A model generated the notes under the pieces. It was not told the DNA's origin and searched no databases. It saw only the letters and a program-made list of their open reading frames with translations. This document shows, piece by piece, positions 6,457 to 19,625 of a DNA stretch of 64,000 nt (position 1 is its first letter; the number at the start of each line of letters is the position of its first letter). The stretch spans positions 62,001-126,000 of the forward strand of contig CAMDQO010000007.1 of the NCBI GenBank assembly GCA_945906105.1. Direction: 5' to 3'. This stretch comes from Novosphingobium sp. Chol11 (GTDB taxonomy: Bacteria; Pseudomonadota; Alphaproteobacteria; Sphingomonadales; Sphingomonadaceae). Made by a program: the position numbers and the translations under genes.

Positions 6457-8034
6457 ATGGCCCAGGATTGGGCGTCTGACGTCAGGAAATACGTGCCTGA
6501 TGCAGACGATGGAATTATCGCTGGTATCGTTCGTTATTGCGGGATTGCCTTGCAGAAACGTGATTCCTCGCTGGTCAGCTTTTCCGATGCCAAGGAAACC
6601 GATCGAGTCCGCAACAACTTCCTCAAGAAAAAGCTCGCACTGACGCAGGCCGATGACGTGCTCGATGCGGCGATCGCTGCGGTTGGTGCGCGGATGAAGG
6701 AAGATCGCAGCAAGAACCGCGTGACCGTCTATTACCTGCTGGCTGAGCATTTTGACATGCTACAGCTGTTCCAGAAAAAAGGCTCGGCAAAGCTTGCCCC
6801 GGTAGTCGAAGCAATCGAAGCCGATGATGCTGACAGCACGACCGAAGGTGTGGCCTCACTTGCCAGCCTTGGCAGCGGGGCGAAGAAAAAGGCCAAGGCC
6901 ATGGTCGATACCGGTATCGATAAGGGCAGCGAAGTCGTTGCCGGTGCTGGCAAAAAAGCCAGTAAGGCTGGAGCAGCGGTTGTCGGTGCCGCTGGTGCCG
7001 CTGTCGCCGGAGTGGCTGGGGCCGCAGGCAAGGTGGCCAATCTGGCAGGCGATACACTTTCTGGTGCGGCTGACACTGCCAGCAAGGCAGGATCAGCCGT
7101 AGCCGGGGCTGCTGGAGTGGCCGCATCAGGCGCGGCTGATGTTGCAGGAAAAGCGGGTGCTGTTGTTGCCGGGGCCGCCGGAGCAGCGGTTTCTGGCGTA
7201 ACCGATGTTGCTGGCAAGGCAGCGGGCATGGCTGGTGATGCCATGTCTGGAGCTGCCGATCTTGCTGGCAAGGCTGCCGACGTGGCAGGGGATGCCATTT
7301 CCGATGTTGCAGATGCTGCTGGCAAAGCTGGGGTAGCCGTCGCGGGGGCCGCTGGAGCTGCGGTTGCAGGAGCCGCCGGTGCTGCCTCGCTGGTGGGTGA
7401 CAAACTCTCCTCCGCGGCTTCTGGCGCAATGCATGGCCTCAAGGGCGATGATGACAACGGCAAGGGCGGCGGATCGCTGCGCTGGCTGTGGTGGCTGCTG
7501 CTGCTCGCGGTGCTCGCTCTGCTGATCTGGTGGCTGTTCTGCCGCAGTTCCGGCGGCGCAGCAGGTGCAGGTGCAGAAGCCAGCGCGTCTGCCATGGCGA
7601 CAACCGAGACTGGTGGATCAGCCATTCCCGCCGGTGCCGTGGCTCTGGCCTCAGCCCCAGCGGAAGGCAGCGTCGCCATCCCCACTGGCGATGGCGTCAC
7701 AGTGGAATCGCGCGATGGCAAACCAGTGGTGAAAGTATATTTCAGCTCTGGCAAAGTAACCGTTCCGGCATCGCTCGCACTCGCGGCAACTGGTGTGAAG
7801 GACTATCTGGCCAGCCATGCCGGGGCAGCACTTGAAGTATCGGGATATGCTGATCCCAGCGGCAATGCCCAGGCCAACGCCGCGATTTCAAAGCAGCGTG
7901 CGGAGGCGGTGAAAGCCGCGCTTGTTGCTGCGGGAATTGCCGATACACAAGTGGCACTGGTCAAGCCTGAAAGTGTCACAGACGCCGCTGTGCCTGCCGC
8001 AGCTGCACGGCGTGTGGAAGTGCTGGTGAAGTAA
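6457..8034 (+). CDS. DUF2853 - Ala/Gly repeat - TM - OmpA-like fusion protein
   Basis: 525 residues. The ATG at 6457 is chosen because AAGGAGGG sits about six bases upstream; an earlier in-frame ATG at 6442 would put that ribosome site inside the gene. Residues 1 to about 105 match the small stand-alone DUF2853 family (KYVPDADDGIIAGIVRYCGI, KNRVTVYYLLAEHF). Residues about 125-325 are an Ala/Gly-rich repeat with recurring units such as VAGAAGAAVAG and DVAGKAG. A single strongly hydrophobic, Trp-rich segment (about 341-362) follows. A second Ala-rich linker then leads to a C-terminal OmpA-like domain (about 415-525, with GYADPSGNAQAN and QRAEAVKAALVAAG). No cleavable signal peptide is seen, so I infer a cytoplasmic N-terminus and a periplasmic, cell-wall-facing C-terminus. 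Function unknown. Confidence 0.82.
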   Translation: MAQDWASDVRKYVPDADDGIIAGIVRYCGIALQKRDSSLVSFSDAKETDRVRNNFLKKKLALTQADDVLDAAIAAVGARMKEDRSKNRVTVYYLLAEHFDMLQLFQKKGSAKLAPVVEAIEADDADSTTEGVASLASLGSGAKKKAKAMVDTGIDKGSEVVAGAGKKASKAGAAVVGAAGAAVAGVAGAAGKVANLAGDTLSGAADTASKAGSAVAGAAGVAASGAADVAGKAGAVVAGAAGAAVSGVTDVAGKAAGMAGDAMSGAADLAGKAADVAGDAISDVADAAGKAGVAVAGAAGAAVAGAAGAASLVGDKLSSAASGAMHGLKGDDDNGKGGGSLRWLWWLLLLAVLALLIWWLFCRSSGGAAGAGAEASASAMATTETGGSAIPAGAVALASAPAEGSVAIPTGDGVTVESRDGKPVVKVYFSSGKVTVPASLALAATGVKDYLASHAGAALEVSGYADPSGNAQANAAISKQRAEAVKAALVAAGIADTQVALVKPESVTDAAVPAAAARRVEVLVK

Positions 8035-8062
8035 ATCTTCATCAACTGACGAAGCGATAGAC

Positions 8063-8099
8063 AGGCCCGACCGGAGTAAACCTCTGGTCGGGCCTTTGC
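8063..8099 (+). terminator. Rho-independent terminator after the OmpA-like gene
   Basis: A 10-bp perfect stem, AGGCCCGACC (8063-8072) with GGTCGGGCCT (8086-8095), closes a short loop that can pair three bases further. It is followed by a T-rich run (TTTGCTTTGCT). It lies about 30 bases past the stop of the OmpA-like gene and separates core genes from the catabolic region. Confidence 0.85.
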
Positions 8100-8237
8100 T
8101 TTGCTCTCGCTGTGGCGATGGATTTAAGCGGCCATGGCGCAGCTTTTCCTGATCGCTTATACGTCAGCAGAATTTTCCGGACTCTGGCTCTTGCCCTGAT
8201 CCGGCACAAAATCGCATTAATTGAAGGAACAGGCTCT

Positions 8238-9017
8238 ATGGATATTTCGAACGGTTCGGTGATTGTCACCGGTGGCGCGGGCGGTTTTGGCGGGGCAACA
8301 GCGCGGCGTCTGGCAGCACTTGGTGCAAAGGTCGTGATCGCTGATGTCAATGATGAGCGCGGTGAGGCTCTGGCTGCCGAACTCGGCAATGGCTCGGTCT
8401 ATGTCCGCACTGACATCATGGACGAGGCTTCGATGGAAGCTGCTGTCGCCAAGGCGGTCAGCCTGGCCCCGTTGCGCGCTGCTGTCATCACTCACGGCGG
8501 CCCGCCTCCGCCAGACAAGGGTGGCCGCGTGATCAACCGCGAAGGCCAGCGAGTCAGCACCGCGCACTTTGCGCAGACCGTGCAGGTCTTCCTGATTTCC
8601 GCCTATACCATGAGCGCCATTGCGGCAGAGGCCATGGCCAAGAACGAGCCACTGGCATCAAACCAGCGCGGCGTGATCGTCAACACCGCCTCGATTGCCG
8701 GTTTTGAAGGCACACCGGGACAGGTGCCCTATGGCGCTGCCAAAGGCGGCATCATTGCCATGGCGCTCAACATGGCGCGCGATCTGGCACCGATCGGCAT
8801 TCGCTCAATGGCAATCGCCCCCGGCACTTTCGCTACCTTCGCCTATGAGCGCATGGGTCTGGACAAAGCGCAGGAAATGTTCGGTCCGATGGTGCTCAAC
8901 CCCAAGCGGATGGGCGATCCTGACGAATATGCCATGCTCGCGCAGCAGATCGTCGAGAATGACTTCCTTAACGGCACAACGATCCGGCTTGATGCCGGGC
9001 AGCGTTTCGCGGCTTGA
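8238..9017 (+). CDS. SDR oxidoreductase, type II 3-hydroxyacyl-CoA dehydrogenase-like
   Basis: 259 residues from the ATG at 8238, with GAAGGAA about ten bases upstream. It is a classical short-chain dehydrogenase with the glycine motif TGGAGGFGG near the N-terminus, which suggests NAD use with the following VIADVND acidic residue. The active site is serine in NTASIAGF and Tyr/Lys in VPYGAAKGG. The overall look (IAPGTFATF near the C-terminus, length) resembles HSD10/type II 3-hydroxyacyl-CoA dehydrogenases that act on branched or steroid substrates. The usual NNAG after strand 4 is replaced by THGGPPPP, which is odd. It stands alone between the terminator at 8.06 kb and the convergent permease gene. 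Confidence 0.85.
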   Translation: MDISNGSVIVTGGAGGFGGATARRLAALGAKVVIADVNDERGEALAAELGNGSVYVRTDIMDEASMEAAVAKAVSLAPLRAAVITHGGPPPPDKGGRVINREGQRVSTAHFAQTVQVFLISAYTMSAIAAEAMAKNEPLASNQRGVIVNTASIAGFEGTPGQVPYGAAKGGIIAMALNMARDLAPIGIRSMAIAPGTFATFAYERMGLDKAQEMFGPMVLNPKRMGDPDEYAMLAQQIVENDFLNGTTIRLDAGQRFAA

Positions 9018-9063: not shown

Positions 9064-9801
9064 TTAGTAAACGCCGATCAACTTGGCACCGGCGATGATC
9101 AGCACCACGCCAAGCGCGCGCACCACCATCACCGTCTTGAACCTGATCCCCGCCGTGGTGCCGACCAGCCCGCCAGCCAAGGCAGCGCCTGCGTAAAGTG
9201 GTAGCGAAGCGGGCAGCTCTTGCAGCGACGTCAGGTTGCCCAGCAGGCCTGAAGCCGAATTGGCAAGGATGAACAGCGCCGCAACGCCCGATGTCTGCTT
9301 GGGCGCGCACCAGGCCATGAACAGCAGCAACGGCGATAGGAAAATTCCGCCGCCGGTACCGGTAAGGCCGGACAGGAAGCCGATCACCGTCCCGGCAAGA
9401 ATGGCCGGCATGATCGGCGGATCGGAAGTTTCACTCTCGGCAGCCAGATGCTTTGGCCACAGCATCCGCACCGCCGAAAACCACAGTATGACGCCGACCA
9501 GTGGCCGATAAAAATGGCCGGGCAAGACAATCGCGCCGCCCAGAAAGGCAAAGGGCAATGCTCCGAGCAGAAATGGCCAGAGCACCCGCCAGCGGAACAG
9601 CCCGGCCCGCAGATAACGGATGCTGCCCAGCGAAGCGACGACGATGTTGAGCACCAGCGCGGTTGGCTTCATCGACGCTGCTGGCACTCCATAAAGCGCC
9701 ATCAGGGCGATATAGGCTGACGAGCCGCCGTGGCCGACGCTCGAATAGAGCGCCGCTGCCAAAAATATCGAGAGCGCCAGTGCCAGATCAAGAGAAGCCA
9801 T
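9064..9801 (-). CDS. TauE/SafE (TSUP) family permease
   Basis: 245 residues with about eight hydrophobic segments and the paired family motifs SSVGHGGSSAYIALM near the N-terminus and GLTGTGGGIFLSPLLL in the second half. The family exports or imports sulfite, sulfonates, thiosulfate and similar small oxyanions or organosulfur acids; the ligand cannot be assigned. It starts 30 bases after the stop of the UGSC selenoprotein gene on the same strand, so it is the third gene of that operon. This suggests handling of a sulfur- or selenium-containing small molecule, but that is inference from context. The ribosome site is weak. Confidence 0.88.
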   Translation of the reverse strand: MASLDLALALSIFLAAALYSSVGHGGSSAYIALMALYGVPAASMKPTALVLNIVVASLGSIRYLRAGLFRWRVLWPFLLGALPFAFLGGAIVLPGHFYRPLVGVILWFSAVRMLWPKHLAAESETSDPPIMPAILAGTVIGFLSGLTGTGGGIFLSPLLLFMAWCAPKQTSGVAALFILANSASGLLGNLTSLQELPASLPLYAGAALAGGLVGTTAGIRFKTVMVVRALGVVLIIAGAKLIGVY

Positions 9802-9831: not shown

Positions 9832-11571
9832 TCAACCTTTACCGATCCGCTGTTCCCAATCCTGTGGCAACACGATCTGCTTCGCCACCGGGAAGCCTAG
9901 ATAGCCGTTGTGCGCAAAGGCCTGCGCGTTGGTGCGCAGCGGATCGCCCGAGACGAGCACCATGAAATCATCGGGGTGCATGACAATCGGCACCATGCGC
10001 TCGGGATCGTCGCTAGTCGCAAAAGCGCGCGGCAGGCGGCCCATATTGACCTGATGCTTGAGCGAGCCGATCTTGAATTCAGTCCAGGTGTTCATCATCG
10101 TCTCGACCCGGCCGGCTTTCATGCGGGCATGGTCATAGAGGTAGCGTTTGACGTCATCCTTGCTCCACCCGGCCTTGGCGATGGCTTCGGCAAGGATCGG
10201 ACTGATCACCAGCACCGGACGCAGCGTACCGAATGTCAGCCCGCCAACGGTGAAGGAAATCTCCCACCCGGTCTCCTTGGCGACACCATCCGCAAGGTAG
10301 GGCATCAGCAATTCGGGCGTGCTGCCGGTAACGGATGGCATGACATCGCCGCCCGTCAGACGCGTGATGGTGACGGTGTTGTCACCCGTCTTGAAGCCCA
10401 TATCCTCGCTGTTGGCGGGCCAGCCGATCTTGGCCAGCGCATCCTCGTTTTCGGCCAGCACGACGCGGAAGGTGTTGCCGAAGGTGCCCTTGTCAGTCTT
10501 GTGCAGACGGAAACCGGCGATGTTGCGCAGTGCCAGACGCCAGAACCGCCCGACACTGGTGTTGGGCTTGAAGCCATCACGCAGTACGCCCTGTTCGTAG
10601 TTGAACTTCAGATCCTTGATGATCGGACCGTTGAGGATGATCAGCGTTTCTGCACCCGGCGTATTGCCGCTGTGCTCTACGCCATATGTCGGATCGGCCA
10701 TCGCCTCACCAAGCGCGACGAGAATCGGCATATATTCCGGACGGCACCCGGCCATCACGCCGTTGGCTGCAATCGCCCATACAGTCACCGCGCGGCTTTC
10801 GGGCAGGACGATACCCAGCACTTCATCGGGATCGCGGTTAGTATAGCTCAGGAACGCCTCGATCTTCTCTATCGTCGGTGGAACGATGGGCAGGCCGTCG
10901 CTCCATTCACGATCATAGAAGAAGTCGTTCACGTCCTCGAAGCTGCCGGTGAAAACGATCTCGCGCGCAGTCGGCTCTGGTTCCAGCACGATTGTTTCGG
11001 GCTGCACCGTCAGGTTGGCGATCACCTCGGCGGCGGTCACTTCCATGGCGTTGCGGCGGATTTCCTCGACCGACTGCGTGCCGGGATGGCCGACAATCGT
11101 TGCTACCGGCATATTCGGATAGCCCAGCCCCACCGACGTGGCGGTAGCCTGCGTCAGGAACCCTTCGCAAACCAGCGAAGAGGTTGGAATTCCAGCTTTT
11201 TCACAAACCTCGCTTGCCCGCAACACGGCGGGCGTGCAAGAACCTCAGCAGGCCATACTTGATATGGCAGCATCAACCCCAAGCTCCTTGAAGCGTTGAG
11301 GCAGCGAGGCGAGAAGCTCCTTCTCATTGACGCCGTGAGTCGAGCCGAATTCGCGCCATGAGATGAATTTCACTTGCGGGTAAGTCTCACGCAGCTTGAC
11401 CTCAAGCGCGTCATAAATCTCGTCTCCGGCGAAGAGGTAATCCCACAGCTGCGCCACGGTCTTGCCGTTCAGTGTATCGAGGCGCTTGGCCAGCGGCCGC
11501 ATCTTCATCCGCCGCTCGCCGCAGGGCCAGACGACGGGATATTGGCCGTCCTGATTTGCCTTCTCAGCCAT
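9832..11571 (-). CDS. UGSC-family selenoprotein (in-frame UGA = selenocysteine 109)
   Basis: 579 residues if the UGA at 11247-11245 is read as selenocysteine. The ATG at 11571 has AGAGGA nine bases upstream. The frame runs 108 codons to ...SSMAC, then UGA, then GSCTPAVLRASEVC and on without a break to the stop at 9832. A gene caller that stops at UGA would report two fragments. The residues around the UGA form U-G-S-C, the name-giving motif of the UGSC (seleno)protein family. The N-terminal segment (PLAKRLDTLNGKTVAQLWDY and later PNMPVATIVGHPG) also fits that family. C17, C108, U109 and C112 could form a redox centre. From about residue 210 there is a further domain of about 370 residues (DREWSDGLPIVPPTIEKIE, TPGAETLIILNGP, SVTGSTPELLMPYLADG) that I do not recognise. 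The protein is probably a selenol-based reductase or thiol transferase. The reductase 18 bases upstream and the permease downstream are likely partners. The selA/B/C/D genes needed for decoding are not in this window. Confidence 0.87.
11213..11247 (-). promoter_or_regulatory. Candidate bacterial SECIS hairpin with the UGA
   Basis: Read on the minus strand, the UGA (11247-11245) is followed after 11 bases by a perfect 6-bp stem GCCCGC (11233-11228) / GCGGGC (11221-11216), closing the hexaloop CGUGUU. CUU (11240-11238) can pair with AAG (11215-11213) below a 4-base bulge. The loop begins 17 bases after the UGA and has a G at its second position. As I recall them, these match the criteria used for bacterial SECIS elements (loop 16-37 bases from UGA, G among the first two loop bases). 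SelB binding is inferred. Confidence 0.65.
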
Positions 11572-11589: not shown

Positions 11590-12528
11590 TTACTTGCCAG
11601 CCAGCAGACGGTGCGCAGCCTCTGCGGCTGAGACGCCTTCTGCCATGGCTTCGATACCCGTGCCACCAAATCCGCTGCGCACCAGGCCAGCGGCGAAGAT
11701 TCTGGGATCGGCAGTCGTCAGCCCTGCTCCGGTGCGCACAAAACCGCATTCATCACGCAGCGCAGCGGGCAGAAAGCTCGAAACCGGCTCTACTCCGATG
11801 AAGGGAAACACGCCGTCGCAGGCCAGATCGCGCTGCGAACCGTCACGCAGATTGCGCAAGGTAATGCCCGTCACTTTGCCATCACCGACGATGGCGCAAA
11901 CTTCGCTATCCCAGACAAAATGCACATTCTCACGCCCATCAAGCTTGTCAGCATGTTCGCGGCGGGCTTTCAGAGGACTGTGGCTGACCAGCGTTACCTT
12001 GCCGCAGACCGCTGCCAAGGTCAGCGCCTCATGCACCGCGCCATCGCCGCCGCCGACCACAACCACGTGCTTGCCGAGATAGAAGGTGCCGTCGCAGGTG
12101 GCGCAGTGCGATACACCGCGCCCGGCAAATTCGGCTTCTCCAGGGACGCCCAGCTTGCGCAACCGCGCGCCCGAAGCGACGATCACGGCACCGGGGTAAT
12201 ATGAGCGCCCTTCCCCGTCGATCAGTTCCAGCCGCTCACCCGCGTCGATCCGCCTGACCGGCGTTTCGACAATGCGGACACCCATTTTTTTCGCTTGCTC
12301 GTAAAGATGCATGGCAAGGTCTTGGCCAGACCATGTACCGGGAAACGGTAGATCATCAACTTCACCGATGGTGGAAACCAGCCCGCCGTAAAGCCCGCTA
12401 CCCTCAAACAGCGTGACCAGCCGCCCGATCCGCGCGGCATGGCGCGCTGCGGAAAGCCCTGCCAGCCCGCCGCCAATAACCGCAATCTCTTCCAGATTTT
12501 TGAGCGGCCGCGTTACCATCGGAGCCAC
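11590..12528 (-). CDS. Thioredoxin reductase-like FAD/NAD(P) oxidoreductase
   Basis: 312 residues from a GTG at 12528; an ATG at 12519 is an alternative with better spacing to GGGAG. It has the two-nucleotide-domain plan of low-molecular-weight thioredoxin reductases: FAD motif VIGGGLAGLSA (about 17-27), redox-active SHCATCDGTFY (C142, C145), second dinucleotide motif VVVGGGDGAVHEA (about 157-168), and a C-terminal FAD contact IFAAGLVRSG. It is first in an operon with the UGSC selenoprotein (18-base gap) and the TSUP permease. I infer that it passes electrons from NAD(P)H to the selenoprotein, as TrxR-type enzymes do for other selenoenzymes. It is not necessarily the housekeeping TrxB. Confidence 0.88.
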   Translation of the reverse strand: MAPMVTRPLKNLEEIAVIGGGLAGLSAARHAARIGRLVTLFEGSGLYGGLVSTIGEVDDLPFPGTWSGQDLAMHLYEQAKKMGVRIVETPVRRIDAGERLELIDGEGRSYYPGAVIVASGARLRKLGVPGEAEFAGRGVSHCATCDGTFYLGKHVVVVGGGDGAVHEALTLAAVCGKVTLVSHSPLKARREHADKLDGRENVHFVWDSEVCAIVGDGKVTGITLRNLRDGSQRDLACDGVFPFIGVEPVSSFLPAALRDECGFVRTGAGLTTADPRIFAAGLVRSGFGGTGIEAMAEGVSAAEAAHRLLAGK

Positions 12529-12746: not shown

Positions 12747-13229
12747 ATGATCGACGCGGCACTATTCCGGCAGGTTTTGGGCCATTACCCCACTGGCGTC
12801 AGTGTGATTACCGCGCTCGATGAAAATAGCGTGCCGGTGGGTATGGTGGTCGGCACATTCACCTCGGTCTCGCTCGATCCGCCGCTGGTGGGCTTCCTGC
12901 CAGACAAGCGCTCGTCCTCCTGGCCGTTGATCGAAGCCGCAGGTCACTTTTGCGTCAACGTTCTCGCCAGCGATCAGAAATCCCTGTGCGCGCAGCTGGC
13001 AAAATCCGGGCCGGACAAGTTCACCGGGGTCGATTTCGCCATCTCGCAGCATAATCTTCCAGTTCTGGCAGAAGCTCTGGTGGCAATCGAATGTCAGCTT
13101 CATTCGGTGACAGAAGCTGGCGATCACTGGTTTGTGCTGGGTGCGGTGCTTGGGCTTGAAGCCAAACGTGATGCTGATCCGATGCTGTTTCACAAAGGAC
13201 GCTACGGCGGATTTGCCGAGATCGCCTGA
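12747..13229 (+). CDS. Flavin reductase-domain protein
   Basis: 160 residues of the flavin reductase-like FMN-binding split-barrel family that feeds reduced flavin to two-component monooxygenases. Visible signatures are ALFRQVLGHYPTGVSVITA, VGTFTSVSLDPPLVGFLPDK, CVNVLASDQ and the C-terminal FHKGRYGGFA. No oxygenase partner is adjacent: the next gene is an SDR. A possible partner is the luciferase-like oxidoreductase at 24.2 kb, but this is only a guess. It is divergent from the TrxR-selenoprotein operon across 218 bases in which I see no clear regulatory site. Confidence 0.88.
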   Translation: MIDAALFRQVLGHYPTGVSVITALDENSVPVGMVVGTFTSVSLDPPLVGFLPDKRSSSWPLIEAAGHFCVNVLASDQKSLCAQLAKSGPDKFTGVDFAISQHNLPVLAEALVAIECQLHSVTEAGDHWFVLGAVLGLEAKRDADPMLFHKGRYGGFAEIA

Positions 13230-13322
13230 GCGCATCAGCTGTAACTTGACAGCGCGGGCGGCAACTGCTGTTCACCTGTTCAGTTGTCGCCGTTATACCA
13301 ACGGCGCGGGAGAGATTCTGAC

Positions 13323-14075
13323 ATGACACGTTCGCTCAGCGGCAGGGTTGCCGTCGTCACCGGTGCTGGTTCGGGCATTGGCCGCGCAATCGCCAAGCGC
13401 CTTGCCGAAGATACTGCCAAGATCGCCATCTGGGACATAAACTTTGCCGGTGCCGAAGAAACCGCGCAGATGATCCGCGATGCAGGTGGCACTGCCATCG
13501 CCATCAACGCCGATTGCTCTGACAAAGCCGCCATTCAGGCCGCCGCTGCACAGACCCGCAAGGAACTGGGCAAGATCGCCATTCTGGTGAACAACGCTGG
13601 CATTGCCCCGTTTACGCCGTTCCTGGAAATCGAAGATGATCTGTTCGACAAGGTAATCCGCATCAATCTGCGCGGGCCATACCTCGTTACGAAGGAAGTG
13701 CTGCCCGATATGCTTGAGGCCGGCTGGGGCCGGGTGATCAACATCACCTCGTCATCGGTGCAATCGGGGTCGTTCGGTCAGGGGCATTATGTGTCGTCAA
13801 AGGGCGGTCTGGTCGGCATGACCAAGGCGCTGGCGCTCGAATTTGCCGCTTCTGGCGTCACCGTCAACATGATCCCGCCGGGCTTCATCGACACCCCGAT
13901 GCTGCGCGGCGCACCGGTCGATGTCGATGCCTTCACCAAGACCCTGCCGATGAAGCGCATCGGCCAGCCTGAGGATATCGCCGCCGCGGCTGCCTATCTC
14001 GCCTCCGAAGAAGCCAGCTATATCACCGGGCAGACGATCAGCACTAACGGCGGGCGCTATATGGGTTCGCATTAG
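13323..14075 (+). CDS. SDR family NAD(P)-dependent oxidoreductase
   Basis: 250 residues from the ATG at 13323, preceded by GGGAGAG. Classical SDR: TGAGSGIGRAIA cofactor motif, LVNNAGIAPF, serine region NITSSSVQSG, catalytic HYVSSKGGL, and C-terminal ITGQTISTNGG. It resembles FabG-like 3-hydroxyacyl or alcohol dehydrogenases; the substrate is unknown. It lies about 90 bases after the flavin reductase on the same strand, so they may be cotranscribed. The downstream side is the intergenic element at 14.1 kb. Confidence 0.88.
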   Translation: MTRSLSGRVAVVTGAGSGIGRAIAKRLAEDTAKIAIWDINFAGAEETAQMIRDAGGTAIAINADCSDKAAIQAAAAQTRKELGKIAILVNNAGIAPFTPFLEIEDDLFDKVIRINLRGPYLVTKEVLPDMLEAGWGRVINITSSSVQSGSFGQGHYVSSKGGLVGMTKALALEFAASGVTVNMIPPGFIDTPMLRGAPVDVDAFTKTLPMKRIGQPEDIAAAAAYLASEEASYITGQTISTNGGRYMGSH

Positions 14076-14126
14076 ATTTCATCGAATCGTCATTGCGCTC
14101 TGGACCGAAGTAGAAAAACATCAGGC

Positions 14127-14281
14127 CTGTCCTACAGGAGCGAAAATTGACATATTCTGCAGGCTCTTTGAAAGTCTGAAGATCAATTTGCTGCTAAAAG
14201 CGGACATGTGTCCGTTTTTTCGGGATATAATGCTGATATTACGTAATAATATACCCGGACAGGGTGTCCGCCCTGTCCGCT
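14127..14281 (+). repeat. Intergenic hairpin element, copy A
   Basis: A non-coding stretch between two convergent genes, clearly related to copy B at 37059-37213. The best block (14159-14188 against 37091-37120) is identical at 25 of 30 positions and ends TGAAGATCAATT. Copy A has a hairpin CGGAC-ATGT-GTCCG (14201-14214) followed by six Ts, so it looks like a terminator on the plus strand. It also has a perfect 9-bp stem CGGACAGGG (14256-14264) / CCCTGTCCG (14271-14279). It could be a bidirectional terminator, a dispersed REP-like repeat or a small RNA gene. Confidence 0.6.
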
Positions 14282-14328
14282 TTACGCTGTGAGCCACAGG
14301 AGCGTGATGGCAATAACGAAGCAACTGG

Positions 14329-15405
14329 TTACCCGACAACTTCACACAAATCAGCGGGCGATGATCTTTCGATCATCCCGTATGCCACTTGCCCGTCCCA
14401 GGTGAATTTCACCCCGCCCTGATTGTTGTTGAAGCCGTTCACACCCGGATTGCCCATGTGGAACGTGCCGTTGACCGTGACGCCTTCGATCCGCGTAATG
14501 CCAAGCTCGGATTCGAACTCGACTGACACATCATCGCCGCGCGGCATGATGCGGCGCAGGAACGGGATGTTGCGCGCTTTGGCCGGAATGAACCGCCCAT
14601 CCACATAGAGATAGGCGTTGTTATAGGTATCTTCCGGTTCCTCGCCTTCAATCGGCGGATAGGCGATGTAACCAAAGGCGCGGCCATCTGGGAACACGGC
14701 TTCTTGCCAGCAATGCCCCCGGAACGCGCCCATGGGCCGCACGCTCTGGCGGCGAATGCGCGAGCCAAGGCATCTGAAGTCGCGCGTTTCGCCATCCAGC
14801 TTCATGGTGCCAGTGCCGCGAAAACAGTGTTCAACCCGCCAGCCATAACCCATCGATCCCGCATCAGCCCGCTCACGCTCCGTCATACCAGCCAGCTTTT
14901 CCGCGCGGTAATCCTGAACCCATGCCGGGGTGACCATTTCCAGATCGACCGACCATGATACCGCCACGCGCTTGCGGTGTTCCAGCCCTTTGCTGCGGCC
15001 CGGATCGGCATAGACACCAAATTCCCCGCGAATCTGTTCCTCGACCCGGCCTTCCCACGCCTCGCCTTCATAGGAGACGGTCCAGCGGCGGAATGGCTCG
15101 ACGCAGCGGAATATCAGGCCGTCACTGCCCAGCGTATCGGCAAGGCCCGACGCGCCAACCGAAGGAACAGTGGTGCCAACCTTGCTCTCACGCAGCACGC
15201 GGCCATCTTTGAAGGCCACGTTCATGTCATAGCGGTGTGTGTCCCACAGCGCGCCCTGCGCCTCAATACCGACGCGCGGGAGGGCAAACTCGCCGTTCTC
15301 CTCGAATATCCACACCGAGGCGCTTTCGCGCATCTCGGGGTCTTCGGGTTTGGCTGGAAACATATAGTCGATTTCGCTTGGCAGCCCGCCAGTCCAGTCA
15401 GTCAT
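14329..15405 (-). CDS. Uncharacterised protein, possibly CrtC-like two-lipocalin fold
   Basis: 358 residues from the ATG at 15405 with GGGAGA upstream. I do not recognise firm motifs. The composition is soluble, rich in Trp, Tyr and Gly, with many beta-strand-like segments (GGLPSEIDYMFPAKPEDPE at the start, MGYGWRVEHCFRGTGTMKL in the middle, NGTFHMGNPGVNGFNNNQGG near the end). Proteins of this sort (DUF7064/7065, distant from hydroxyneurosporene hydratases) occur beside SDR, P450 and acyl-CoA genes in sphingomonads and mycobacteria. A role in binding or hydrating an isoprenoid or steroid-like substrate is speculation. About 90 bases separate it from the upstream SDR on the same strand. Confidence 0.6.
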   Translation of the reverse strand: MTDWTGGLPSEIDYMFPAKPEDPEMRESASVWIFEENGEFALPRVGIEAQGALWDTHRYDMNVAFKDGRVLRESKVGTTVPSVGASGLADTLGSDGLIFRCVEPFRRWTVSYEGEAWEGRVEEQIRGEFGVYADPGRSKGLEHRKRVAVSWSVDLEMVTPAWVQDYRAEKLAGMTERERADAGSMGYGWRVEHCFRGTGTMKLDGETRDFRCLGSRIRRQSVRPMGAFRGHCWQEAVFPDGRAFGYIAYPPIEGEEPEDTYNNAYLYVDGRFIPAKARNIPFLRRIMPRGDDVSVEFESELGITRIEGVTVNGTFHMGNPGVNGFNNNQGGVKFTWDGQVAYGMIERSSPADLCEVVG

Positions 15406-15493
15406 CACGCTGTCTCCCAATGCTCGTTGGGACGCATGGTGAAGCAACGGGCAGCGCTGACAAGTCGCCCCCGCGATGCCTTATCGGTTGAAG

Positions 15494-16330
15494 CTATTCC
15501 CCCAGCACCCGCGCCCGCGCATCCATGATGTCCGCCAGATGATTGACCGGATCGCCCGCCGTCACCCCGGCCTCGACCGGCATGACTATCCCGGTGATCT
15601 GCCGCGCGCGGTCGCTGGCGAGGAACAGCGCGGCCTGTGCGCAGTCTTCCGGCTCACCGCGCCGCTTGATGATCTGGTTGGAAAGGTAAACCGCATCAAT
15701 CTCACTCTCCAGCTGGACAATCTTGTCATTGGACGCGCCCTGCTGGAACGAGGACAGCTGGGTGCGGATATGCCCCGGCACAAGGCAGTTCACCCGGATG
15801 CCATAACGGCCAAGATCAATCGCCGCAGACTTGCTGAACTGGTTGAGCGCCGCCTTGGAGGCGCGGTAGGTCATCATCGCGTGGCCTGCGAGCAACCCGG
15901 CAATCGAGGAGTTTTGCAAGATCACCCCGCCGCCATGATCCTTCATGTGCCGCGCCGCAATCTGTGTGCCGAGCATTGGGCCGAGCACATTGACCCGCAT
16001 CACCCGGTCAAAATCATCGAGCTTGTCATCGATGAAATCGGGATAGGCACCGCAGGACATGCCGGCATTGTTGAACATGATATGCAAGGCCCCAAAGTGC
16101 GAAACGGCAAGGTCCACTGCCGCCTGCACCTGATCGCGGTTGGAAACATCGGTACGAATGAACACCGCGTCATCGCCAAGGCTGTCCGCCAGCGCCTGAC
16201 CGCCAGCCTCGTCCATATCGGCGATGACCACTTTCGCGCCTTCCAGCACGAAAAGCTCCACAGAGGCGCGGCCAATCCCGCTGGCCCCGCCCGTAATAAC
16301 TGCAACTTTGCCCGCCAGTTCCTGTGCCAA
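15494..16330 (-). CDS. SDR family oxidoreductase
   Basis: 278 residues. Classical SDR with TGGASGIGRASVEL, IADMDEAGG (acidic end of strand 2, so NAD is likely), FNNAGMSCGAY, serine region QNSSIAGLLAG and catalytic TYRASKAAL. A roughly 20-residue C-terminal extension follows the usual end. It begins 11 bases after the P450 stop on the same strand, so the P450 product (an alcohol) is a plausible substrate. Confidence 0.88.
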   Translation of the reverse strand: MAQELAGKVAVITGGASGIGRASVELFVLEGAKVVIADMDEAGGQALADSLGDDAVFIRTDVSNRDQVQAAVDLAVSHFGALHIMFNNAGMSCGAYPDFIDDKLDDFDRVMRVNVLGPMLGTQIAARHMKDHGGGVILQNSSIAGLLAGHAMMTYRASKAALNQFSKSAAIDLGRYGIRVNCLVPGHIRTQLSSFQQGASNDKIVQLESEIDAVYLSNQIIKRRGEPEDCAQAALFLASDRARQITGIVMPVEAGVTAGDPVNHLADIMDARARVLGE

Positions 16331-16341
16331 GTTCCGGCTCC

Positions 16342-17643
16342 TTAAGCGCTGCGGCGCGTGAATGTGATCGGCAGCTTTTCTATCGTTCTGGTGGCCACCG
16401 TGGGCACAAAGCGCACGTCTTCAGGTGCAATCGCCAGCTTGATATTGTCCATCCGCCGGGCAATCTCGCGCGCCATGACCTTTACTTCCATGCGCGCAAG
16501 GGCAAGGCCGACACAGCGATGCACGCCGCCGCCAAAGGCCACGTGCCGGCCAATATTGGGCCGATCAATGTCGAAGCTGCGCGGATCGGGGAAAACTTCT
16601 TCCTGATCGTTGGCCGAGCCATAGACCAGCAGCAAATGCGCGCCTTCGGGCAGCGTGATACCGCCGAGTTCAACCTCGCGGGTGGTCATACGCGAAAGCG
16701 CCCGCACAGGAGGTTCAAGCCGCAGCAGTTCCTCGACAAAGCGGGTCATCTTGCGCTCATCGTCCACTGAATCTTTGAGCAGCTGCGCCACATCAGGCCG
16801 TGTCGCCAGGATGAAGAACAGGTTGCTGATGGCGGTGGCAGTCGTGTCATTCCCGGCAATCAGCATCGCCCGCACGAGGCTGACCGCTTCGTCAAAGGTC
16901 AGCGTCTCCACCGTGCCATCGGGCATAGGGATTTTGGCGTGAACAATGTCAGAAATCATATCTTCGCCGGGATTGGCTTCGCGTGCGCGCATCTTGCCGA
17001 TCAGATAGTGCTGAAGATCGCAGATCTCGCGTGCCGCCTCGACCATTTGTTCGCGGTTCTGCATCCGCCCAATCTGGGCCGTGACCGCCACTGACCAGCG
17101 CGAAATCTTGTCCTCCATGCCATGATCGAGCCCCAGCTGTTCAACGATCACGCGGATGGTGAGCGGCACGGCAATCTCTTTCACTGCATCGGCCGCGCCC
17201 TTATCGGCGACGCTTTCCAGCAGATCGACCACCGTTTCCTGAATCCGCGGCTCAAGATCTTTCACCCGGTGCGCCGTAAAAGCGTTCTCCATCAGCTTGC
17301 GGATGCGTGTATGATAGGGCGGGTCCGACATGATCGCATCGGGGAAATAGCCGCCACCATCGCGGCGCAGGATGTCCTGATACTCATCCTGCATGCCGCG
17401 CGCCTGCTGGGTGTGATACCCCTTGTTGACCGAAAAGGTCAGCGGATCGGCCTGAACAGCAAGGATATCCTCGTGCCGGGTCACCAGCCAGGAATTGAGC
17501 GTTGGATCAAGGTGAACCGGATCGCCATGGCGCAGCGCCCGGTAAAAAGCATGCGGCTGCGCCTGAACGGCAGGATCGGCAAGAGTAGCGCTGGCGATCA
17601 GTTCCTGTTCTGCGGGGGTAAGGGTTGCTGAATCGGCTGACAT
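16342..17643 (-). CDS. Cytochrome P450
   Basis: 433 residues from the ATG at 17643; no membrane anchor, as in soluble bacterial class I P450s. The heme-binding loop FGGGVHRCVG places the thiolate cysteine at about residue 377. The oxygen-activation helix has AGNDTTATA and the ExxR pair is in EELLRLEPPVRALSR. It introduces an oxygen atom into a hydrophobic substrate. A [2Fe-2S] ferredoxin gene lies about 140 bases upstream on the same strand and is the natural electron donor; no ferredoxin reductase is in the cluster. A following SDR could oxidise the alcohol formed. The exact CYP family would need a search. Confidence 0.93.
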   Translation of the reverse strand: MSADSATLTPAEQELIASATLADPAVQAQPHAFYRALRHGDPVHLDPTLNSWLVTRHEDILAVQADPLTFSVNKGYHTQQARGMQDEYQDILRRDGGGYFPDAIMSDPPYHTRIRKLMENAFTAHRVKDLEPRIQETVVDLLESVADKGAADAVKEIAVPLTIRVIVEQLGLDHGMEDKISRWSVAVTAQIGRMQNREQMVEAAREICDLQHYLIGKMRAREANPGEDMISDIVHAKIPMPDGTVETLTFDEAVSLVRAMLIAGNDTTATAISNLFFILATRPDVAQLLKDSVDDERKMTRFVEELLRLEPPVRALSRMTTREVELGGITLPEGAHLLLVYGSANDQEEVFPDPRSFDIDRPNIGRHVAFGGGVHRCVGLALARMEVKVMAREIARRMDNIKLAIAPEDVRFVPTVATRTIEKLPITFTRRSA

Positions 17644-17786
17644 GCGTTGATCCTGTCCTTGCGCGGCCACCGGCTGATGCTGCGGCTCATTATATCTCTG
17701 TCACCACAGTGCGATGAGAAGTCGTGAGCCGCCATGGCCTCTTTGGAATCGACGCTTGCCTAACACGGCAAGTGCCCCCCTTGTAA

Positions 17787-18122
17787 TCAGTATGCCGAAG
17801 CCGGAGCGACCGTCACTTCCACGCCGTCCAATTCGGCGCTCATCTTGATCTGGCACGATAAACGGCTGTTTTCCTGCTGCACATCAGAGACCATATCGAG
17901 CATACCAAATTCGATATCGTCTGGTTGGCCTACCTTGGCCATCCAGTCAGTGCTGACATAGACATGGCACGTGGCGCAGGAACAACCGCCTCCGCAATCA
18001 CCGAAGATGCCCTCAACGCCATGCGCCTTGGCCACTTCCATCAAGCTCACACCTTCATCAACATCGCTGAAAGTGCTGGTTTCGCCCTTAACGTCTGTCA
18101 TGGTCACAGTCAGATTGCCCAC
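17787..18122 (-). CDS. [2Fe-2S] ferredoxin (adrenodoxin/putidaredoxin type)
   Basis: 111 residues from a GTG at 18122 with GGAG eight bases upstream. The frame is open far further upstream, but that extension has no ferredoxin similarity and no good start. Cluster ligands are C43, C49, C52 and C90, in GDCGGGCSCATCHVYV and SRLSCQIKM. The C-G-G-G-C-S-C-A-T-C form has the extra cysteine common in alphaproteobacterial P450 ferredoxins. It probably donates electrons to the P450 encoded just downstream. Confidence 0.92.
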   Translation of the reverse strand: MGNLTVTMTDVKGETSTFSDVDEGVSLMEVAKAHGVEGIFGDCGGGCSCATCHVYVSTDWMAKVGQPDDIEFGMLDMVSDVQQENSRLSCQIKMSAELDGVEVTVAPASAY

Positions 18123-18383
18123 GGGTATGTTCTCCGATCGTTTGTGTTTCAGGCGATGCCAGCAGGTCTCATGCCCGATATTCTGCCGTAAAGCCAAGTA
18201 CCGGTAGTGCGCCGTGAGTTGACTGCCAAGGCAGCAAGGGCAAGTCTGCTTCCTCCCGTGTGCTGGGAAACGCCGCTGGGGGAAACCGCCAGTGCCATGG
18301 CAGTCATTGGGCTGTCTGCTCAGGCGAATTATGCTCACGGTTGAAATGGCGCCATCCGCGCGCCTGATAGGAGAGACAGGACA

Positions 18384-19625
18384 GTGGCAACCACGCTCAT
18401 CGCCCAGGCCACGATTTTCGATGCTACCTGTGCGAAGCCGTTCACTGGCTCTGTGCTGATTGATGGCAACCGCATCGCATCTGTCATCACTGGCCGTGAC
18501 AGGCCGCAAGCCGATCATGTGATCGAGGCTGACGGCAAGTTCCTGATGCCCGGAATGACCGAGGGCCACGGCCATCTCTCGTTCGAGAATGTCACCGCCA
18601 CCGAAAACCTGATCACCCCCTGCCCAGAAGAACAAGTGTTTACTGCCGCGCGCGGGGCGAAGGCACTGCTCGATGCCGGTTTCACCAGCGTCTATGGCGC
18701 ATCCGAGGCCAAGCTGCGGCTGGCCGTGGCGGTTCGCAACGAAGTCAACGCTGGTCGCATTCCCGGCCCACGCATCCGCGCTGGCGGCCTCGAAATCAGC
18801 GTCACTGGCGCGATGGGAGATGAAAGCAAGGAACACAACCCGCGCGTTGGTCCATCAACGCTGGTCGATGGACCAGAGGAAATGCGCAAAGCCGTGCGGA
18901 CGCATTGCCGCGAAGGCGTGGACAATATCAAACTCGATGTCTCGGGCGATCCGTTCTACCCCTCGACCCCCGGCCACACCACGCCGATGAGCTTTGAAGA
19001 GATCAAGATGGCGGTCGACACCGCCCATGCCTATGGCCGCAAGATCAATGCCCATACCCGCTCGATACAGGGCTCAAAGGATTGCATCAGGGCTGGCGTA
19101 GATGGTCTGTTCCACTGCGAGTATTCCGACGAGGCACTGCTCGATATGATGGAAGAGGCGAAGGATCGCATTTTCGTTGTACCGACCATCGATTTGTTTG
19201 ACTGCATGGCAACTGGCAAGGCTGCCAACTGGGGAATAACTGCCGAAGTCGCCGGCTGGATGGGCATTCCCGGCCTGATCGAGGAATCGATCAAGACCCA
19301 CACGGCGCTGCGCCAGCGCGGTGTTCGGCATCTGATCGGCGGTGATTTCGGTTTTGCCTGGAGCGCGCAAGGAGCGCAGGCGCGTGATCTCCAGCATTTC
19401 ATCAAATACTATGGCTACAGCTCTGCCGACGCGCTGATCTGCGCTACGCGAAACGGCGGACAAGCGATGATGGCTGACGGCAGTCTTGGCACGATCGAAG
19501 CGGGAAAACTCGCCGACATGGTGCTGGTCGACGGCGATGTGCTGGCCGACATTTCCCTTCTCACCGATACCAGCAAACTTGTCCTGATCATGAAGGACGG
19601 CTCGCTTTACAAGTCACCCGCCTAA
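18384..19625 (+). CDS. Metal-dependent amidohydrolase family protein
   Basis: 413 residues from a GTG at 18384 with AGGAGAG upstream. It has the amidohydrolase-superfamily plan: a small beta domain at both ends (SVLIDGNRIASVI; GTIEAGKLADMVLVDGD) around a TIM barrel. Metal ligands are visible as TEGHGHLS, a lysine in DNIKLDVSGD, histidines in INAHTRS and LFHCEYSD, and aspartate in IGGDFGFAW. This resembles imidazolonepropionase/prolidase-like hydrolases that cleave amides, lactones or cyclic compounds. It is the first gene of a five-gene plus-strand operon with a Rieske oxygenase 32 bases downstream, so it may open a ring or release an amide from the growth substrate. Substrate unknown. Confidence 0.85.
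   Translation: MATTLIAQATIFDATCAKPFTGSVLIDGNRIASVITGRDRPQADHVIEADGKFLMPGMTEGHGHLSFENVTATENLITPCPEEQVFTAARGAKALLDAGFTSVYGASEAKLRLAVAVRNEVNAGRIPGPRIRAGGLEISVTGAMGDESKEHNPRVGPSTLVDGPEEMRKAVRTHCREGVDNIKLDVSGDPFYPSTPGHTTPMSFEEIKMAVDTAHAYGRKINAHTRSIQGSKDCIRAGVDGLFHCEYSDEALLDMMEEAKDRIFVVPTIDLFDCMATGKAANWGITAEVAGWMGIPGLIEESIKTHTALRQRGVRHLIGGDFGFAWSAQGAQARDLQHFIKYYGYSSADALICATRNGGQAMMADGSLGTIEAGKLADMVLVDGDVLADISLLTDTSKLVLIMKDGSLYKSPA

Follow-up and report, generated by a model that had tools for sequence, protein, structure and literature searches.

A Selenocysteine-Type UGSC Fusion Protein in a Sphingomonad Clade, with a Thioredoxin Reductase-Like Neighbour and a Predicted Remote Relation to GrdB and PrdB

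Introduction

The UGSC family of selenoproteins has been in print since 2008, as has a fusion of the UGSC domain to a further domain called Unknown_1 (PMC2398784). In the accessible part of that GOS survey of ocean and fresh water, UGSC is among the commonest selenoprotein families (255 sequences), and a thioredoxin (Trx)-like fold was supposed for it. A 2026 review, in its available text, places UGSC among families with largely uncharacterized functions (PMC13188914). Clusters of selABC and fdhA have been described in bacteria with a single selenoprotein, and the same source, in the part available, proposes FdhA or SelD as maintaining the selenocysteine (Sec) trait (PMC1794560). A 2016 paper, in its accessible portion, states that sphingomonads lack selenoproteins (PMC4741004).

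The window analysed here, 64,000 nucleotides of DNA from Novosphingobium sp. Chol11, contains a gene that is ordinary in kind, belonging to a known selenoprotein family and a known fusion type, and unusual in host and setting: Sec is seen in a sphingomonad clade, partly within a gene cassette, beside an upstream TrxB-like gene, and in a domain with predicted remote homology to GrdB and PrdB. With the published fusion, as far as the available text of its description goes, the protein shares a UxxC motif with Sec or Cys in first place and a fused further conserved domain, which is presumably the Unknown_1 of 2008; in contrast to that description, which supposed a Trx-like fold, the domain model is Rossmann/flavodoxin-like, and TrxB-like and sel genes are linked to it (PMC2398784). 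As in the published selABC-fdhA clusters, Sec machinery and selenoprotein stand side by side in 5 of the 9 UGA genomes, but the linked selenoprotein is UGSC and not FdhA (PMC1794560).

Results and Discussion

The Gene and Its In-Frame UGA

9832..11571, minus strand: gene of the UGSC-fusion selenoprotein (579 aa, a single in-frame UGA; translation, Pfam UGSC match)
11245..11247, minus strand: UGA codon 109, read as selenocysteine (TGA conserved; Cys in other fusions)
11002..11571, minus strand: N-terminal UGSC domain, residues 1-190 (AF2 model; remote GrdB/PrdB homology by profile)
9835..10974, minus strand: C-terminal partner domain, residues 200-579, with a DGLPxxPPT motif (a separate gene in other genomes)

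With TGA translated as U, the frame from 11571 to 9832 encodes 579 residues, and its single internal TGA is codon 109 (11247-11245), preceded by 108 codons and followed by 470 before the true stop, also TGA. Translation thus bears out the minus-strand frame of the original prediction, 108 codons, one UGA and 470 more. The start ATG at 11571 is preceded by GAAAGAGGA, and UGA109 lies in the motif MACUGSCTPAVLRASEVC. The Pfam UGSC family (PF24696) matches residues 13-188 with 93.3 bits against a cut-off of 25; the NCBIfam equivalog UGSC_fam (NF041046) scores 43.3 bits, under its cut-off of 125, which places the protein in the family and outside the equivalog. The window gene is the only UGSC match in a search of its own genome, and the [UC]GxC motif columns are invariant across 14 sequences.

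Under translation table 11 the locus reads as two open reading frames, 11245-11571 (108 aa) and 9832-11226 (464 aa, GTG start), as would be the case if the UGA were a true stop and the locus either a pseudogene or a pair of separate proteins. It is thus plausible, as the original prediction held, that annotation would miss the selenoprotein as two fragments. The conservation of the locus bears on the reading as a true stop. A match to the window protein was found in 16 of 148 genomes, its own included, and the fusion with TGA at this codon in 9 of the 148 (G000, G010, G013, G026, G043, G053, G056, G068, and G083). The eight orthologues from other genomes, all of the same genus, are 76-87% identical to the window protein; one of these genomes, G043, is in 3 contigs, and in G053 the fusion gene is split over two contigs. 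Searching GTDB contigs with the protein returned four loci: two apparently on the same contigs as those of G013 and G026, a third from another member of the clade (L044), and a Desulfosporosinus homologue (L046) that is 47% identical and has UGA at the same site. The L045 contig seems to be identical with the one in G026, and its label, Actinobacteria bacterium 21-64-8, is probably wrong. Since both halves are conserved in one frame in eight further genomes with TGA at the same codon, the open frame is not a product of chance, and the same TGA in the eight congeneric genomes and in Desulfosporosinus makes a base error at 11245-11247 very unlikely.

Homologues without the UGA have Cys at the site, not Trp. 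Among the fusions with Cys, the motif is CCGAC in L023 (G125), SCGTC in L024 (G074), and DCGSC in L025, L026, and L031. More widely, UGSC matches occurred in 5 of 398 genomes drawn from the phylum (own included). The six other loci of that draw comprise three with UGA at the motif (L047, L048, and L051), one with CGSC (L050), and two (L049 and L052) that represent one place, with CGSC at the motif and a TGA elsewhere. UGA at the UGSC motif is also found on an Acidovorax plasmid (L102), which is a conjugative IncP plasmid, and on a Paracoccus plasmid (L130), whose host is Paracoccus versutus. Alignment with UGSC relatives, which had been proposed as a check, accordingly gives U or C at this position and supports the claim that the UGA occupies the Sec site of the family.

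Selenocysteine Machinery

The own genome (3.0 Mb in 59 contigs, 99.08% complete) encodes a tRNA-SeC with anticodon TCA (C2:116593-116682, 67.6 bits; ARAGORN agrees), as well as selA, selB, and selD, which are grouped on contig C2 and score 576, 401, and 514 bits respectively, in each case above the curated cut-off. The lack of any of selA, selB, selC, or selD had been named as grounds for abandoning the original prediction; all four are present and pass their curated cut-offs. One more locus passes the tRNA-Sec cut-off, with 48.7 bits, but ARAGORN calls it a tRNA-Ser. The selA, selB, and selD genes (L011, G000:C2:24-35 kb) adjoin genes resembling assimilatory nitrate and nitrite reductases; the tRNA-Sec is about 90 kb away from them, and the selenoprotein gene is on a different contig.

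Across the 148 genomes, selA scores above cut-off in 10, namely the nine with the UGA (own included) and G041, a genome of 64% completeness that gave no match to the window protein; in another four, selA matches are weak and fall short of the cut-off. Besides the own genome, each of the 9 with selA above cut-off has a tRNA-Sec at 66.8-80.6 bits, with the next best match at 51.2 bits or less. The expectation that Sec use is uncommon in this group agrees with these counts and with the accessible text of the 2016 paper, and the window selenoprotein runs against the statement there that sphingomonads have none (PMC4741004).

A Candidate SECIS Element

11208..11241, minus strand: predicted bacterial SECIS stem-loop (position, conservation, frozen codons)

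A hairpin lies 17 nt after the UGA, with an inner 6-bp stem (11233-11228/11221-11216, GCCCGC/GCGGGC) and the loop CGUGUU (11227-11222); at the same place the Desulfosporosinus gene has a 4-bp stem with the loop CGUGAC. A simple count of stacked pairs gives 5-6 for the clade UGA genes and 4 for Desulfosporosinus; in four Cys genes it gives 3, 3, 4, and 5. Because two of the four Cys genes reach 4-5 bp, stem length alone does not separate UGA from Cys genes. When fold energy was compared with synonymous shuffles, P ranged from 0.04 to 0.78 over 11 UGA genes and was below 0.05 in just one, and a test of frozen codons was then made. Nine full-length UGA orthologues share 212 invariant residues whose codons are threefold degenerate or more; at 25 of these the third base is frozen as well, and the longest frozen run in the gene is formed by codons 114-118, within the hairpin. 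Column shuffling gives P ~1e-5 for codons 114-118 and 0.003 for such a run anywhere, both values being approximate given that the nine orthologues are related. Moreover, CCGCCGTG and GCGG are invariant in 11 of 11 aligned rows, Desulfosporosinus included. By position, conservation, and frozen codons, the stem-loop is predicted to be a bacterial SECIS element and the putative binding site of SelB.

Taken with the in-frame conservation of both sides at 76-87% identity and of the UGA in nine genomes, the Cys of the homologues, and the presence and co-occurrence of Sec machinery, the frozen synonymous sites after the UGA leave a true stop very improbable. Nothing was found in favour of a sequencing error or of a UGA read as some other amino acid. 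Against the former stands the same TGA in separate genomes; against the latter, the TCA-anticodon tRNA-SeC, selA, selB, and selD, together with homologues that replace the UGA codon by Cys and not Trp. The chance of either is smaller still, next to nil. Sec incorporation at UGA109 is virtually certain, and the window gene is read here as encoding a genuine selenoprotein in which a Sec-bearing UGSC domain is fused to its usual partner domain.

Domain Structure

AF2 models the whole protein with a pLDDT of 89.7 and a pTM of 0.89. The modelled UGSC domain resembles three-layer folds of the Rossmann/flavodoxin-like type (Z 8.3-11.2, rmsd 2.8-4.1 A over 113-156 residues), and residue 109 is placed after the strand 101-107 and before the helix 112-125. 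The Trx-like fold suggested in the available part of the 2008 description is not supported by the AF2 model (PMC2398784). In Foldseek the full model gave no match at E 0.001 or better, and none of the 50 matches listed for it bears a thioredoxin-fold title, a listing that excludes nothing. Sequence searches of solved structures found nothing for the protein up to E 1 and nothing for profile A2 up to E 10; profile A3 gave only matches of E 0.13 and worse.

The partner domain, of about 380 residues, is conserved, with invariant G, P, T, N, R, and E residues, and matched no Pfam family. Modelled alone (pLDDT 89.6, pTM 0.90), it gave 14 Foldseek matches at E<=0.001, all to Leishmania major fumarases (best 6e-5), with TM-scores of 0.16-0.24. 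Over the top fumarase matches as a whole the TM-score runs from 0.16 to 0.32, the rmsd is high, and the VIA-align Z is about 5; the best VIA-align hit (Z 6.2) is to chorismate mutase-like pieces. Given the low TM-scores, no fold relation of the partner domain to the matched structures is claimed. Two additions suspected by eye were dropped: a Trx-like extension of the partner domain, seen in both L048 and L050, which had no Pfam match, and a NifU-like tail on L029, which had none up to E 10.

Relation to GrdB and PrdB

A profile of 14 UGSC domains (A3) was compared with 14 GrdB and 4 PrdB-type sequences. HHalign matched it to the two together at 96% (E 3.9e-9, 101 columns), with the UGxC motifs aligned and Sec on Sec; against GrdB alone the value was 96% and against PrdB alone 92%. 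With the motif masked it was 88% (both sides) or 89-90% (one side), and two subsets of the UGSC profile gave 94-97% each. Reversed profiles reached at most 8% and eight unrelated families less than 1%. These comparisons, which are of sequence profiles, indicate that the UGSC domain is remotely homologous to the Sec region of the glycine and proline reductase proteins GrdB and PrdB.

Pfam GRDB (PF07355), a family found in 36 of 101 other genomes, does not match the window protein up to E 10. A PrdB fragment up to its UGA matches PF07355 to position 346 of 347; the model thus appears to end at the Sec and to see only half of the shared region. Matched to 31 ORF clusters of grd/prd loci, A3 reached at most 27%, with the part of GrdB before its Sec. 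In an incomplete literature search no statement of a relation between UGSC and GrdB/PrdB was found, and the portions of the sources available list them as separate families.

The likeness, then, lies in the UGxC region and in the profile match that aligns Sec to Sec. It extends to the neighbourhood, in that TrxB-like ORFs stand beside grd genes in 3 of 5 fetched loci (one checked by Pfam). In contrast to GrdB and PrdB, the window protein has no PF07355 match, and its partner domain is unrelated to GrdE and PrdA. As a relative of these, the partner domain was rejected at 0.12% against the GrdE/PrdA cluster (PF09338), and as a relative of any grd/prd protein at less than 2% against all 31 ORF clusters (25 + 6). 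With a partner unrelated to GrdE and PrdA, which are the pyruvoyl subunits, the reaction of GrdB and PrdB cannot be carried over unchanged.

The TrxB-Like Neighbour and the sel Cassette

11590..12528, minus strand: TrxB-like flavoprotein with a CATC motif, the next upstream gene, 18 nt away (FAD/NAD domains)
9064..9801, minus strand: TauE/SafE-type permease, the next downstream gene, 30 nt away

The upstream neighbour shares with TrxB (TIGR01292) the FAD/NAD domains and CATC, but its 231.9 bits fall short of the 343 that this model requires; another gene of the genome, on contig C47, is a TrxB that passes with 390 bits. A TrxB-like gene lies directly upstream of the fusion at all 10 clade UGA loci (window, L044, and L053-L060). 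Desulfosporosinus also has one upstream, and a second copy nearby. The permease was found at 1 of the 9 other clade UGA loci (L060); L057 ends inside UGSC.

Five of the nine UGA genomes (G068, G056, G026, G010, and G053) share the order selA-selB-TrxB-like-UGSC, with selD divergent beside selA in three of the five and, in G010, a tRNA-Sec 1.1 kb beyond UGSC. Over the aligned parts, SelA of the cassettes is 43-46% and SelB 32-44% identical to the own-genome proteins, a distance that implies two different sets of Sec genes serving the same selenoprotein. In their remaining flanking genes the cassette genomes are unlike the window group, which points to the TrxB-like protein and UGSC as a functional unit and at the same time means that gene context names no substrate.

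The TrxB-like neighbour and the UxxC pair would also suit a general thiol peroxidase or disulfide reductase that draws electrons from the TrxB-like protein and uses its C-terminal domain for regulation or docking. In the accessible part of the GOS survey, 33 of 51 selenoprotein families, UGSC included, are called homologues of thiol oxidoreductases or of Trx-like-fold proteins (PMC2398784). The UGSC model is Rossmann/flavodoxin-like, though, the profile match is to the substrate-binding GrdB and PrdB, and a conserved 380-residue partner with invariant residues looks like a substrate site. Such a general thiol enzyme is therefore considered unlikely.

The Module in Other Lineages and on Plasmids

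In 19 of 20 loci from relatives and plasmids, the UGSC and C-terminal domains are fused or are neighbours (16 by tblastn; L067, L102, and L129 by reading the motif); in the remaining one, L128, the partner but no UGSC was found. Of 24 plasmid records found, 12 were examined. The fetched stretch contains a TrxB-like gene at 7 of these 12 plasmid loci (L101, L104, L123, L124, L127, L129, and L130), at a distance of about 2 kb in L127 and 5 kb in L130. One is also present at L051, a UGA locus of another alphaproteobacterial lineage. None was found at the 8 Cys-type loci of relatives (L061-L068, 6.7-17 kb fetched each), in 17 kb around the UGA-type UGSC of L102, or within the 1.5-kb flanks of L047-L050. 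That the TrxB-like gene is exclusive to Sec forms was rejected, because it adjoins Cys-type plasmid modules too and is missing at the UGA-type L102.

The missing TrxB-like gene near the relatives' Cys-type loci is what one would expect if Sec were the nucleophile of a non-redox reaction, as in a transferase or lyase, and the TrxB-like protein only protected the selenol; the top Foldseek matches of the partner domain, class I fumarases, are lyases as well. Those matches have the poor TM-scores, rmsd, and Z given above, however, and more than one lineage has a TrxB-like gene accompanying the module, so that non-redox chemistry appears quite improbable.

Transporter genes recur near the module: a CitMHS-type gene in L046, tripartite tricarboxylate binding proteins in Variovorax, Acidovorax, and Natrinema, TRAP proteins at three haloarchaeal loci and in Roseovarius, and the TauE/SafE-type permease of the window. 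Elsewhere, L123 has only an MFS gene, L124 has ABC genes, none is listed for L127, and L130 is unannotated. From the annotation of the recurring genes, the pattern suggests an organic acid as substrate.

On the haloarchaeal plasmids L125, L126, and L127, two copies of the partner gene flank UGSC, one on each side. In L124 (Neorhizobium galegae, 7588-8500), a TrxB-like stretch in two pieces follows UGSC and the partner; no listed gene covers it, and it probably contains a frame break.

A Model for Function and Maintenance

The preferred explanation, a genuine selenoprotein together with the mechanism that follows, is given a probability of about 0.65. In this model SelB and tRNA-Sec would decode UGA109 through the stem-loop directly downstream. 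NADPH would reduce the adjacent TrxB-like flavoprotein, which in turn would reduce a Se-S bond between Sec109 and Cys112. The freed selenol might then attack and reduce a small organic acid bound by the C-terminal domain, most likely with cleavage of a carbon-heteroatom bond by analogy with GrdB and PrdB, after which Cys112 would release the product and restore the Se-S bond. The TrxB-like protein is the probable electron donor. For chemistry like that of GrdB and PrdB, which the model takes over by analogy, the odds are put a shade below even. The GrdB/PrdB link, the linked reductase gene, and the conserved partner domain make the reaction directly testable.

Of the three families looked for (FdhA, SelD, and UGSC), only UGSC was seen as a selenoprotein. 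In the 4 checked of the 10 selA genomes (own, in which SelD lies on C2, and those of L053, L054, and L056), SelD carries Cys. FdhA-type matches, some of them partial, occur in the own genome and in 8 of the 9 others with selA, and none of them is interrupted by an in-frame stop. On these grounds the case runs against the proposal, as worded in the available part of its source, that FdhA or SelD is needed for the Sec trait (PMC1794560).

The host group of the window gene is mainly aerobic. We tentatively propose, with less confidence than for the chemistry itself, that UGSC proteins form a further branch of GrdB/PrdB selenol reductases outside strict anaerobes, one that lacks the pyruvoyl partner and relies on its own substrate domain and a dedicated NADPH-TrxB-like donor, and that in sphingomonads the UGSC gene moves in a compact cassette with selA, selB, often selD, and once tRNA-Sec, and is itself what keeps Sec in the genome, in place of FdhA or SelD.

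Flanking Regions

Upstream of the TrxB-like gene, window positions 12747-19625 form a catabolic-looking stretch with a flavin reductase like HsaB, short-chain dehydrogenases, a P450, and an amidohydrolase, largely common to G000, G013, G043, and G083. At 14329-15447 on the minus strand lies an ORF of 372 residues with no Pfam match, whose synteny is kept in three relatives. Near the UGSC cassette of G056 (L054, 18159-18367) are tandem glycine riboswitch aptamers (61.5 + 50.8 bits).
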